Below are positions 1,805 to 30,277 of a stretch of DNA of 36,164 nucleotides, piece after piece; the first letter of the stretch is position 1; each line of letters starts with the position of its first letter. This stretch comes from Acidobacteriota bacterium. GTDB taxonomy: Bacteria; Acidobacteriota; Terriglobia; Terriglobales; Acidobacteriaceae. The DNA is taken from positions 1 to 36,164 of the forward strand of contig JAJZHE010000009.1 of the NCBI GenBank assembly GCA_021804655.1, written 5' to 3'. The notes under the pieces were generated by a model that worked only from the letters and a program-made list of their open reading frames with translations, did not search any database and was not told the DNA's origin. Both the position numbers and the translations under genes were made by a program.

Positions 1805-1860
1805 ACCAGTAGATGCCACATTGCGCCTTGCGCGCCTCTGCAATCAAAGGAGAATCGCCA

Positions 1861-2844
1861 TTGAAGTTCGCTTTTTCGTCTCGTAACTGGCTGCTACTCG
1901 CACTTTGCGCCACTGCCCTGGTTCCCCCAATGCGCGCGCAACAGGATGTTCCGCCCGCTCCGAAACTGGCGCCAGGCTCCGTTGCCGGTCCTGTCTTCCC
2001 CAAGCCAGACCCAACAGACTTCACCGCCGCTTCACCCACCGTCGATCAGGTCAATGGTTTCCTGAAGTCCACCTGGGGCTATGACCAGAACCGGCTCTTC
2101 CAGGTGCAGCGCATCGCCAAAACGCAGGTTGATGGTGTCTCCAGCGTCGTCGTCATCGTGGGCACGCGCGGAAACGCCCAGCTCAGCGCGCTTCAGTTCT
2201 TCACCATGCCAGACGGCAAACACATCATCGCAGGCGGCGAAATTCTTCCCTTTGGCACACGTCCTTATGACGAAAACCGCGCCAGGCTGCTCAGCCAGGC
2301 AACCGGTCCCTGGGAGGGTACGCCCACGCGTGACCTGATCCTCGTCGAGTTTGCCGACTTCCAGTGCCCGCACTGCAAAGTCGCTGAGCCGACCATGGAA
2401 AAGCTCGCCACCGACTTTCCCAACGCGCACATCATCTTCCAGAACTACCCGCTCACGCATGTCCATCCTCAGGCTTTCCGTGCTGCCTCCTATGGCGTCT
2501 GCGTCGCTCAAATCGGAGGCAATCCGGCCTTCTTCAAGTTCGCCAAAGCCGTCTTTGATGGCCAGGCTGGCCTGACCACCGACGACAGCACCACCCTCAC
2601 GCTCAACAGCGCCGTCACCGCCGCCGGCCTCAGCCCGGACAAGGTGCAGGCCTGCTCCACCACTCCGGCCACGCAGGCCACCGTCCAAAGCCAGATCAAG
2701 CTGGCCGAAGACCTCGGCGTCAATCAGACCCCTTCGTTGGCCATCAACGGGCGGATCATCCCGCTCGGCGGCGTCCCCTACGACGCTCTCAAGCAGATCA
2801 TCTCCTATCAGACCCAGATGGATGGCCCGGCTCCACAACAGTAA
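1861..2844 (+). CDS. Secreted DsbA-family thiol:disulfide oxidoreductase
   Basis: Probable periplasmic thioredoxin-fold protein (DsbA/Thioredoxin_4 type) of 327 aa. I chose the TTG at 1861, not the ATG at 1813, because AAGGAG lies about 8 bp upstream and translation from there begins with a clean signal peptide (MKFAFSSRNWLLLALCATAL, cleavage near RAQQ). The active site is CPHC at about residues 169-172 within FADFQCPHCKVAEP; the cis-proline loop is NQTPSLAING (Pro about 291). About 130 residues precede the thioredoxin fold, a region I cannot assign, perhaps a dimerisation or substrate-binding part. Substrate and redox direction (oxidase or isomerase) cannot be told from sequence. It follows nadE in the same direction, but a functional link is not obvious. 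Confidence 0.9.
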   Translation: MKFAFSSRNWLLLALCATALVPPMRAQQDVPPAPKLAPGSVAGPVFPKPDPTDFTAASPTVDQVNGFLKSTWGYDQNRLFQVQRIAKTQVDGVSSVVVIVGTRGNAQLSALQFFTMPDGKHIIAGGEILPFGTRPYDENRARLLSQATGPWEGTPTRDLILVEFADFQCPHCKVAEPTMEKLATDFPNAHIIFQNYPLTHVHPQAFRAASYGVCVAQIGGNPAFFKFAKAVFDGQAGLTTDDSTTLTLNSAVTAAGLSPDKVQACSTTPATQATVQSQIKLAEDLGVNQTPSLAINGRIIPLGGVPYDALKQIISYQTQMDGPAPQQ

Positions 2845-2944: not shown

Positions 2945-3060
2945 TAAGGCATTTTCCGGAATACTGTGAACTTTCCGAAGTTCATGAGGGTGGATTTTTC
3001 TTGAGGAAAAATCCAATCCGCAGAATGGTTTTGGTCTACACCTTTCCGGAAAATGCTTTA
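2945..3060. repeat. Terminal-inverted-repeat element with nested hairpins
   Basis: Terminal arms TAAGGCATTTTCCGGAA (2945-2961) and TTCCGGAAAATGCTTTA (3044-3060) are inverted repeats matching at 16 of 17 positions. Inside are two perfect hairpins: GAACTT-TCCG-AAGTTC at 2968-2983 and GGATTTTTC-TTGAG-GAAAAATCC at 2992-3014. It encodes nothing. The form resembles a MITE or a large palindromic intergenic element; no target-site duplication is obvious. Confidence 0.6.
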
Positions 3061-3190
3061 GCTTTTGCCTTTACTCTTGCCTTTGTTCTTACTTTTTGCC
3101 GTTGCTTTTCTTGTTGTCATTCCCGCAGGGAATCTGCTTTTGCTTTACGTTCTTGCTGTTGTCTTCCTCTGCAACTCTCACCCCAGCGTA
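3057..3190. repeat. Pyrimidine-rich intergenic tract with short palindrome
   Basis: The plus strand is strongly C/T-rich with a loose TTTGCC/TTCTTGC hexamer rhythm. It is interrupted by the perfect palindrome ATTCCC-GCA-GGGAAT at 3119-3133. From memory, similar pyrimidine runs flanking a CATTCCC..GGGAAT palindrome are dispersed in Terriglobia genomes; I cannot verify this here. Confidence 0.5.
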
Positions 3191-3271: not shown

Positions 3272-4048
3272 TCACCCCCAGCGGATCATCACCACCTGCC
3301 GCACCCACATGGGCGCAACCCTGTGCCGCAGCATCTTCACTGGTCGCCCGCTGACCTTGGTCGCCCGCTCCACAATTGCCTTCATCTCCCGCGCGGTATA
3401 CGCCCTGCGGATCGACGTCTGCCCATCCGCTGCATGAATCCGCGAGAGCAGCGGAGCCACAAACGCGCGAAACAGCGCCAGCGGCACTGGATGCCGCACC
3501 AGGTCCAGCAGCACCAGCGCGTCGCAGCTTCGCGCCACATTGCAGATCATCGCCTCCAGCGCATCCGGATCCAGATGATGCGCCATCACCACGCACACGG
3601 CCACATCTGCTTGCGGCAGCGCGTCTCTCGCTGCGTCAGCGCGCACAATCGTCACCGATTCTGCGGCGCATTCCCCGCGGATATCCACGCCCACCACCGC
3701 ACAGCCCATCCGTTTGCGAATCGTCGCCAGCAGCGCACCCTGTCCGCAGCCAATGTCCAGCACTCGGCTCTGCGCTCCCACGCCCATCCCGCTCAACTCC
3801 CGCAGGACAGCTTTGCGATTCCCCAGCCACCGATGCAGTGTGTCCAGCTCGCGATACAATCCCCGCAGAGTCGCTGCATCCGGCTCCGTCGTGTCCAGAA
3901 TTTCCAGTCCATCCAGTCGCTCTGTCAGCAGAAGACGCTGCTTCCACGCGCGCAGCTCTTGCTGACGTCTGTCGGCGTCGCGGAGCAGCCAGGTCGGAAT
4001 CAAGCGACTCTCGTTCACTGCAACCCCAAGGGCTTTTGGGTGCCGCAA
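3272..4048 (-). CDS. Class I SAM-dependent methyltransferase
   Basis: Predicted cytoplasmic methyltransferase of 258 aa with the SAM-binding motif I VLDIGCGQG at residues 96-104, acidic strand ends (VVGVDIRG, IVRADAAR), then AHHLD and LLDLVRHPVP after strand 4. The last motif recalls a methyltransferase group often found beside type III polyketide synthase and FAD-dependent reductase genes; neither is nearby. The substrate is unknown. The start is uncertain: TTG at 4048 lacks a Shine-Dalgarno sequence, and a GTG 10 codons inside (VNESRLIP) is a fair alternative. It lies 107 bp downstream of the secretin gene on the same strand and may be the last gene of that operon. Confidence 0.8.
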   Translation of the reverse strand: MRHPKALGVAVNESRLIPTWLLRDADRRQQELRAWKQRLLLTERLDGLEILDTTEPDAATLRGLYRELDTLHRWLGNRKAVLRELSGMGVGAQSRVLDIGCGQGALLATIRKRMGCAVVGVDIRGECAAESVTIVRADAARDALPQADVAVCVVMAHHLDPDALEAMICNVARSCDALVLLDLVRHPVPLALFRAFVAPLLSRIHAADGQTSIRRAYTAREMKAIVERATKVSGRPVKMLRHRVAPMWVRQVVMIRWG

Positions 4049-28892: not shown

Positions 28893-30222
28893 TGTGTGCG
28901 CAACTGAGCGGATCATCCGTTGGAGTCACCTGGCCTGGCCCGTTGCTGCCGCCGCCGGAATCCGTCTGCTGCTGCTGTTGATTGCCCTCCATGCGACGGG
29001 TCTGGCGGCGATCACGGCAGGCGACAGCATCAGTTATCTGCGGCCCGGCGCGGAGCTGATGCGCCACGCCTGTTTCTGTTCCAGCGGCTTGCCAGAGATC
29101 GATCGCACACCCGGTTACCCGCTTTTTGCCATGTTGACCGGCAGCCTGTGGGGCGCTCTGTTCCTCACGGTGATGGCGCAGATTCTGCTCAGCGCGCTCA
29201 ACGTCGTTCTGGCGCATCGGATCACCATGGAAATTTTTCCGGATGCGGGCGCAGCGCAGGCGGCAGCCTGGCTGATGGCGCTGGAGCCGCTTGCAGTGGA
29301 GTACTCGATTCGCCTGCTTTCAGAGACGTTGTTTGTGTTTCTGCTGCTGCTGTTTCTGTGGCGGTTGGTGCAATACATGCAGCAGCCGAATATGCACAAC
29401 GTGGCACAGGCGGCTGTGCTGCTGGCCGCAATGGCTTACGTTCGTCCGGTTGCTTACTGGCTGGCTCTGCCCATTGCGCTCGTGTTCCCGCGAAGACGCT
29501 GGACGCATGCCGTGGTTTTTGTTGCGCTGTTTTCCATGCTGGTCGCTCCATGGCAGATGCGCAATGCCCACCAGGCGCGTTCCACGGAATTTTCCTCGAT
29601 TGCCGATAAGAATCTTTACTTTTATGTGGCCGGCGCGGTGCTGGCGCAGCGGAGTCATGTATCCCTGGAAACCTGGCAGGCAGACGCAGGCAAGGAGGAC
29701 GCAGTCCTTTGGGCAAAGCTGCATCCGGAGCAGCAATCGTGGACCGAAGCGCAGCGCAATGCCTGGCTGCGCAGTGAGGGATTGCAGGTGCTGCGCGCGC
29801 ATCCCTGGAGCTTTCTGCGAAGCTACATTTCCGGTGAGGTCAGACTCCTGTCTTCGCCCGGTGCGTCGGAGTTTTTTCGACTGACGGGATGGTCGGCGCG
29901 ACCGCCGGGCATGGATAGGCCATTGAGCCGACGATGGAGTGGATTGCAATGGATTGTGACCGGAAGCATGGAGGCGTATCTGCTGCTGCTCTGGATATTC
30001 GCCGCCTTCGCGCTCTTTGCATGGAGACGACGTGGCAAGGCAGACCGAAAGCTTTGGCTGCTGGCCGCGGTTGCGCTCTATTTTCTGGCCGTCTCCGGCG
30101 GCGGACAGGCAGTGAGCCGGCTTCGTCTGCCGGTGATGCCAATCCTGTGCATCTTTGCCGGGGGTGGAATGGCGCTGGCGGGCAAGTACACGAAGAGAGA
30201 TGGTGACCCCGGCAGGATTTGA
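28882..30222 (+). CDS. Polytopic GT-C-type glycosyltransferase
   Basis: A 446-aa membrane protein with about nine or more hydrophobic helices (for example GIRLLLLLIALHATGLAAI, LFVFLLLLFLWRLV, AVVFVALFSMLVAPW, LLAAVALYFLAV). The first extracytoplasmic loop holds AGDSISYLRPGAEL, the acidic GDxxxY-type site of PMT/ArnT-like (GT39/GT83) enzymes, which take sugars from polyprenyl phosphate in the periplasm. The match is architectural, so the exact family is uncertain. Start MKNDVC is inside the end of the GT4 gene. The last codons (GDPGRI) read antisense through the 3' end of tRNA-Arg, so the final residues are set by the tRNA gene. Confidence 0.82.
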   Translation: MKNDVCATERIIRWSHLAWPVAAAAGIRLLLLLIALHATGLAAITAGDSISYLRPGAELMRHACFCSSGLPEIDRTPGYPLFAMLTGSLWGALFLTVMAQILLSALNVVLAHRITMEIFPDAGAAQAAAWLMALEPLAVEYSIRLLSETLFVFLLLLFLWRLVQYMQQPNMHNVAQAAVLLAAMAYVRPVAYWLALPIALVFPRRRWTHAVVFVALFSMLVAPWQMRNAHQARSTEFSSIADKNLYFYVAGAVLAQRSHVSLETWQADAGKEDAVLWAKLHPEQQSWTEAQRNAWLRSEGLQVLRAHPWSFLRSYISGEVRLLSSPGASEFFRLTGWSARPPGMDRPLSRRWSGLQWIVTGSMEAYLLLLWIFAAFALFAWRRRGKADRKLWLLAAVALYFLAVSGGGQAVSRLRLPVMPILCIFAGGGMALAGKYTKRDGDPGRI

Positions 30223-30277
30223 ACCTGCGACCTCCGGTTTAGGAAACCGCTGCTCTATCCAACTGAGCTACGGGGCC
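30201..30277 (-). tRNA. tRNA-Arg (anticodon CCU)
   Basis: On the minus strand a full cloverleaf reads from GGCCCCG (30277) to CGGGGTC-A-CCA (30201), with D-arm GCTC/GAGC, anticodon loop TTCCTAA and T-arm GCAGG-TTCGAAT-CCTGC. Anticodon CCT (plus-strand AGG at 30241-30243) decodes AGG. CCA is encoded. There is one G-G mismatch at the top of the anticodon stem (27-43) and one G-U in the acceptor stem. The 3' end overlaps the last 22 bp of the convergent glycosyltransferase gene. Confidence 0.95.

Follow-up and report, generated by a model that had tools for sequence, protein, structure and literature searches.

Short palindromic MITEs are known in bacteria; their movers, and the constraints under which they live, mostly are not. 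Rhizobia carry the RIME1 repeats, which have TAGAGC-like ends. In the sections of a review of bacterial repeats that describe them, ERIC (also IRU or RU-1; 127 bp), found in enterobacteria, is a short palindromic MITE with TA ends, TA duplication, a strongly folding transcript and no known IS that has its ends, and RUP (107 bp) of Streptococcus pneumoniae is a non-coding repeat present in many copies at TA targets, with ends resembling those of IS630-Spn1, by which it is proposed to be moved (PMC2229807). The same sections describe Correia or NEMIS elements (~107-155 bp) of Neisseria as TA-ended inverted-repeat MITEs, the longer form of which has an IHF site, and CIR (~110 bp) of Caulobacter and Brucella as an intergenic repeat with TA ends that consists of two arms and a linker, has GANTC sites and lacks an end-to-end stem (PMC2229807).

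The window analysed here, the whole of a 36,164-nt stretch of DNA, comes from an acidobacterial draft genome (G000; 2.86 Mb, 245 contigs, 87% complete) and contains at positions 2945-3060 (no strand assigned) a 116-nt inverted-repeat element with TA at both ends. Judged by form and duplication against the published descriptions, it would group with ERIC, RUP and Correia among the palindromic MITEs that end in TA (PMC2229807). It resembles ERIC in the features listed above and differs from it in length, in host group and in the terminal repeats, listed as 7 bp for ERIC and 17 nt (16 matching) here (PMC2229807); the paired change of the outer arms between genomes and the presence of copies in stop codons set it further apart. 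With RUP it shares a size of about 100 nt, the TA target, the many copies and the non-coding character, but the searches made here brought up no resident IS whose ends match. From Correia it is separated by its host, and from CIR, which it matches in length, TA ends and intergenic position, by ends that pair mutually. Two IS5-family, IS427-like IS of related genomes are also alike in their TA duplicated at CTAG and their TA-RG ends; they differ in carrying a transposase, and their ends do not match the arms of the element. Neither this element in Acidobacteria nor MITEs that use stop codons were found described in the literature covered, which was limited, so that this is weak evidence of absence. 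The interpretation favoured here, to which we assign a probability of roughly four in five, is that the element is a non-autonomous, TA-duplicating MITE of ~116 nt that is moved in trans and survives in stop codons.

The window copy and its relatives

The outer arms of the window copy, TAAGGCATTTTCCGGAA (2945-2961, plus strand) and TTCCGGAAAATGCTTTA (3044-3060, plus strand), are 17 nt long and 94% complementary, with 16 positions matching. The element's ends read TA-AGGCATTTTCCGGAA. The first two bases of the left arm and the last two of the right are probably the duplicated TA, and the mobile unit would then be 114 nt plus the duplicated TA. The central hairpin, TGGATTTTTC-TTGAG-GAAAAATCCA (2991-3015, no strand assigned), has a perfect 10-bp stem and a 5-nt loop, and it is the most conserved part of the element. 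The first-pass annotation of this DNA, made from the sequence alone, gave the same boundaries and arms, saw no encoded protein, in agreement with the absence of coding capacity found here, and described two perfect hairpins. Both hairpins are indeed perfect in the window copy; the smaller, GAACTT-TCCG-AAGTTC (2968-2983, no strand assigned), was rejected as a conserved part, being perfect in only 7 of the 23 copies in the same genome and absent from the minimum-energy fold of the window copy. Three parts of the element are conserved: its outer arms, its central hairpin and the terminal TA. The predicted RNA fold has an energy of -48.9 kcal/mol, against -25.84 (sd 3.65) in shuffled sequences (z -6.32), and not one of 200 shuffles was as stable, so the palindrome in the window is more than chance. 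Over the element, Rfam gave no match above threshold, the best scoring 19.6 bits against a threshold of 105 (E 0.058).

The window copy lies between two genes that run towards it, a DsbA-like thioredoxin gene on the left (1813-2844, plus strand) and a methyltransferase gene on the right (3272-4048, minus strand). The pair is convergent, and the window copy does not coincide with a stop codon. A perfect 14-bp inverted repeat of terminator-like appearance (2868-2897, no strand assigned) follows the 3' end of the left gene, outside the element. The right flank (window 3061-3150), which carries TTGTTGTCATTCCCGCAGGGAATCTGC, is a member of another repeat family that is very abundant in related genomes, with many matches in G014 and G007 and an array of ~50-nt spacing in contig C101 of G007. 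The sole above-threshold Rfam match in the window is a tRNA gene at 30204-30277 on the minus strand.

Further copies, which the first-pass annotation had proposed to look for, are present in the same genome and in related ones. Its own genome contains 23 matches, 91-100% alike over the aligned part, three of which are identical and stand each at a different site. A DNA search of 61 genomes, including this one, gave matches in 12 at 71-100% identity, in some cases covering the element only partly. In a public collection of 84,980 species, 57 stretches contain the exact 23-base central hairpin, all in records titled Acidobacteria, Acidobacteriaceae, Acidicapsa or Granulicella, and a model of the whole element matches all 57, two of them cut by a record end. 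A covariance model built from 28 elements, with at most 14 candidates scored per genome, found matches in 79 of 250 sampled genomes of the same family and in 23 of 79 genera; the length is ~113-119 nt among the covariance-model matches listed. When 297 genomes were sampled across the phylum, at least 31 of them from the family of the own genome, 14 had matches, and all 14 belong to that family. A plasmid collection searched with the window element and with L231 gave no match. Single-copy occurrence with no conservation, the outcome named in the first-pass annotation as speaking against its reading, was tested for and did not occur. The element is thus one member of a superfamily spread through its genome's bacterial family, which, to go by the named records of its relatives, is probably Acidobacteriaceae.

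Some relatives matched solely in the central hairpin in the DNA search. Around such hairpins stand elements of similar length with other ends, for example GCAGAATCCGCATA replacing GCATTTTCCGGAA, and each variant end pairs with the opposite end of its own element. Through the flanks of another copy a further kind was reached, which has GCGTTTTCGCTCA ends. In 28 aligned elements, changes on both sides were found in 11 of 15 outer pairs, and over the whole structure there were 80 cells of both-side change, where shuffles gave 25.0 and slid controls no more than 25; the central stem showed double change in just 1 of 10 pairs, in an alignment in which five G007-type rows are shifted at that stem. 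In a second set of 31 elements, the two arms of one element were 94% alike and arms of different elements 54%, with the own-arm figure equalled in 0 of 10,000 permutations. An uninterrupted central stem of at least 8 bp is present in 27 of the 31. Among these stems 20 distinct strings occur, or 14 if the innermost 8 bases are compared; as each stem was taken as the longest perfect run, presence and diversity are what count. A consensus fold with no structure given recovered the outer stem, with compensatory change in 11 of 13 pairs, and missed the central hairpin, which the alignment splits. It is shown by these comparisons that the arms stay complementary while their sequence shifts between genomes. 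The compensatory changes in the outer stem fit a structured RNA, the other option of the first-pass annotation, which may hold in addition to mobility; selection on paired DNA ends can also give them.

Target site and candidate movers

The flanks suggest that the element inserts at TA within YTAR. Over 61 places in the named records (from 125 rows, with one strand taken per place and three places cut by record ends dropped), G or A stands just outside the TA at 104 of 121 ends; most left flanks close with C or T, and most right flanks open with G or A. Target duplications, a second check proposed in the first-pass annotation, are seen around a related element. One copy in the own genome (L261, equal to the copy in L061) is split by a TA-ended element at AATAC-TA-TCAACTT, with TA on both sides, and this sequence is intact in other copies. 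The nested element (L261:2192-2421) has the ends TAGAGCGTGTTTCAT and ATGAAACACGCTCTA and a different core, and it looks like another TA-ended family of the same genome. The nested insertion is a clean case of TA duplication, seen for a related element whose ends share the TA-RAGC type. TA duplication is thus shown directly for the nested relative and through the flanks for the element of the window. Another copy (L008:1502-1617, equal to the copy in L047) lies inside a G007-type element, with a spacing that fits one TA by eye. Queries made of joined flanks gave one clean empty site, in G014, which reads GGC-TGA-GATG against the expected GGC-TA-GATG and is one base longer; a second aligned site was too diverged to place the junction. 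The TGA is probably stop-codon drift, although the match is imperfect. TA is absent at one end in 5 of the 23 own copies. Insertion sites are polymorphic: the element is missing from 23 of 30 homologous gene ends compared across three relatives (see below). The first-pass suggestion of a non-autonomous mobile element is therefore well supported by the dispersed near-identical copies, the TA duplication, the empty sites in relatives and the lack of coding capacity.

We infer that a DDE transposase acting in trans, IS5/IS427-like or IS630/Tc1-mariner-like, would recognize the paired outer arms and insert the element at TA inside YTAR. The first-pass annotation had also pointed to a transposase with matching ends, and none was found among the IS630-type loci, the IS427-type loci and the end-pattern searches. 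The 12 PF13340 (DUF4096) loci, in 5 of 8 genomes, have ends that differ from the arms. Two IS427-like elements were delimited in relatives (L314 and L315); both duplicate TA at CTAG, which makes such enzymes candidate movers, and their ends, TA-AGAACC and TA-GGGCG, are of the same type as TA-RRGC ends, yet do not match the arms. One end of the L314 element follows 312 open codons with an in-frame TAA, and IS427-like IS of the L314/L315 type may use gene ends too.

Within the MITE interpretation, an IS630/Tc1-mariner-like mover in place of an IS5/IS427-like one is conceivable, at somewhat less than even odds. TA duplication and a CTAG-like target are IS630 hallmarks, and three DDE_3 matches are present in the own genome; a precedent is RUP with its proposed mover IS630-Spn1 (PMC2229807). 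Against it, none of 30 PF13358 (DDE_3) loci, which come from 8 of 13 genomes and include many fragments, had matching ends in a scan that looked for the end motif as well as for inverted repeats ending in TA at a distance of 700-2200, and TA at CTAG together with TA-RRGC-type ends is found in the two IS427-like elements, even though the arms are unmatched there as well.

No autonomous relative with matching ends was present in the assemblies and patterns searched. All end-pattern matches in the own genome belong to its 23 copies, and in G012, G014 and two single-contig relatives the patterns returned only the short element itself, copies of it that are decayed, gapped or interrupted, and chance matches. 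Larger elements with the same ends were sought in the two single-contig relatives with a narrow pattern, and the 8 matches consisted of five of the short element and three unpaired ones. Seven unpaired or variant end matches in G012 comprise one copy next to a gap in the assembly, one that runs off its contig, decayed or divergent copies, one cut by another IS, and a match with no element. Near position 168 of L255, a G012 copy is cut within its central hairpin by GAGCCTGTCCAGAAACT, which is like the IS427-type ends in relatives. Y1_Tnp gave three matches at two places in the own genome: an IS200-like Y1 transposase gene (L038:1121-1606) broken across two frames, and a fragment close to the end of a contig.

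Several of the DDE_3 and DUF4096 matches in the own genome are partial or near contig ends, and as drafts can lose multi-copy IS, the partner IS may be missing from this assembly. A match of ends to an autonomous partner is known, among the bacterial repeats covered in the review, only for RUP (PMC2229807), so that an absent partner does not exclude membership of the MITEs.

Insertion into stop codons and gene ends

In 17 of the 23 own copies an end of the element coincides with the stop codon of a flanking gene. As a test of this, flanks were joined with one TA and genes were called without the letters of the element; the reconstructed junction is the gene's TAG or TAA in 16 of the 23, or in 17 with the corrected right boundary of L261, where a 496-codon open frame ends in TAG at the junction. 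Other named places have a junction stop codon in 16 of 32 cases, or 13 of 29 when three sites shared with the own genome, all positive, are left out; 6 of the 61 places were skipped for short flanks. In FK5.bin103, whose elements have mostly TAC/TAT ends (16 of 24 places with TAC and TAT ends, two with one TAG end and six with other non-stop ends), a junction stop codon is found in 1 of 23 places; compared with this, the shares in the own genome and in the other named records are higher (Fisher 7e-6 and 3e-4), the contrast coming from one genome and hence one lineage. Non-coding YTAR sites in these records are stop codons in ~18% (66 of 362, elements unmasked), and the share in the own genome (16/23) exceeds this null (binomial 1e-7).

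Of 34 gene ends at these junctions, 33 are faced by an element end that spells a stop triplet. With the copies whose two ends both spell a stop set aside, this is true of 12 of 13, and the far end in several of these copies is GAA, TCA, CAA or GGA, as expected if selection acts on the gene-facing end only. Since TA together with the next base of the element (A or G) rebuilds TAA or TAG, the protein is unchanged. Homologues of 15 genes that end in the element were sought in three relatives; those at L006, L007 and L274 gave no homologue row, and the other 12 gave 30 homologous gene ends, of which 23 (10 genes) have no element, six have the element and one carries a member of another family. In all 30 the stop falls after the same residue, and the 23 element-free ones close with TAA, TAG or TGA. 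Ten of the genes ending in the element were scanned against Pfam, and eight matched, several to their last domains; a MutS2 with Smr domain, a glutamyl/glutaminyl-type tRNA synthetase and a GGDEF protein are complete in this way. The element enters stop codons and rebuilds them, and no truncation is seen in the genes compared.

The placement between genes is also biased. With a codon model trained on the same sequence, 16 of the own copies lie between convergent genes, seven between tandem genes and none between divergent ones, against a background of 38 convergent among 250 gene pairs away from the element in the named records (Fisher 6e-8); in the window alone, 4 of 25 gene pairs are convergent and 4 divergent. 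The named records, with nine of the 61 places set aside because no gene was called on one side, give 22 convergent and five divergent places among 52 (Fisher 4e-5 for convergence). All gene calls come from a home-made codon model, and 18 of 20 flanking proteins checked match Pfam. In the favoured MITE interpretation, selection against insertions in genes and promoters, rather than aiming, would account for the enrichment of copies in stop codons and in the 3'-3' spaces of convergent pairs.

The opposite possibility, that the transposition machinery prefers gene ends, that the fold provides a portable 3' end for two convergent genes and that the family is becoming a domesticated 3'-UTR module, is unlikely but deserves mention. 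In G012 (L302), an element of another family with the same architecture and the ends TAATGCAGTTTCACAG and CTGTGAAACTGCTCTA occupies the stop codon of the homologue of the gene at L003. Two families in the stop codon of one gene, in two genomes, fit an aimed insertion; chance re-use of a safe site fits them too.

It is improbable that the element is foremost a functional structured RNA, or a bidirectional 3'-end element of convergent genes such as an mRNA stabilizer, RNase site or terminator, with its spread incidental. The very stable fold, the compensatory change in the outer stem of the unguided consensus fold, the central stem kept across diverse elements and the bias to 3' ends and convergent pairs would all suit such a role, but the sites are not conserved, most homologous gene ends being free of the element, the window copy has no T-run directly 3' of its central stem, the best Rfam score is far below threshold, and the same covariation is expected from paired ends bound by a transposase. 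For a MITE, the central hairpin might persist because a palindrome is required for transposition or for being tolerated at message 3' ends; of the steps proposed here this is the least certain. Y1 enzymes are not known to make TA target duplications, and a REP/REPIN-type repeat moved on single-stranded hairpins by a Y1 (RAYT or IS200-like) transposase, to which the hairpins and the Y1_Tnp matches could point, is very improbable and was rejected on the TA seen on both sides of the nested insertion, while the better Y1 match is split between frames and the other a contig-end fragment, none of the 23 copies lies on the two Y1-bearing contigs, and the unit is a single 116-nt palindrome instead of paired short REPs.

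As a MITE, the element offers a superfamily that combines many genomes, a near-fixed length, paired changes at the ends and a conserved core, and the co-evolution of ends and transposase is thereby open to study. Gene callers should also take into account that a number of genes in these genomes end in a stop codon that is part of a mobile element. The stop-codon result suggests a way of multiplying harmlessly in a gene-dense genome, in which TAA/TAG ends make stop codons safe sites, and the lineage with mostly TAC/TAT ends hardly uses them.
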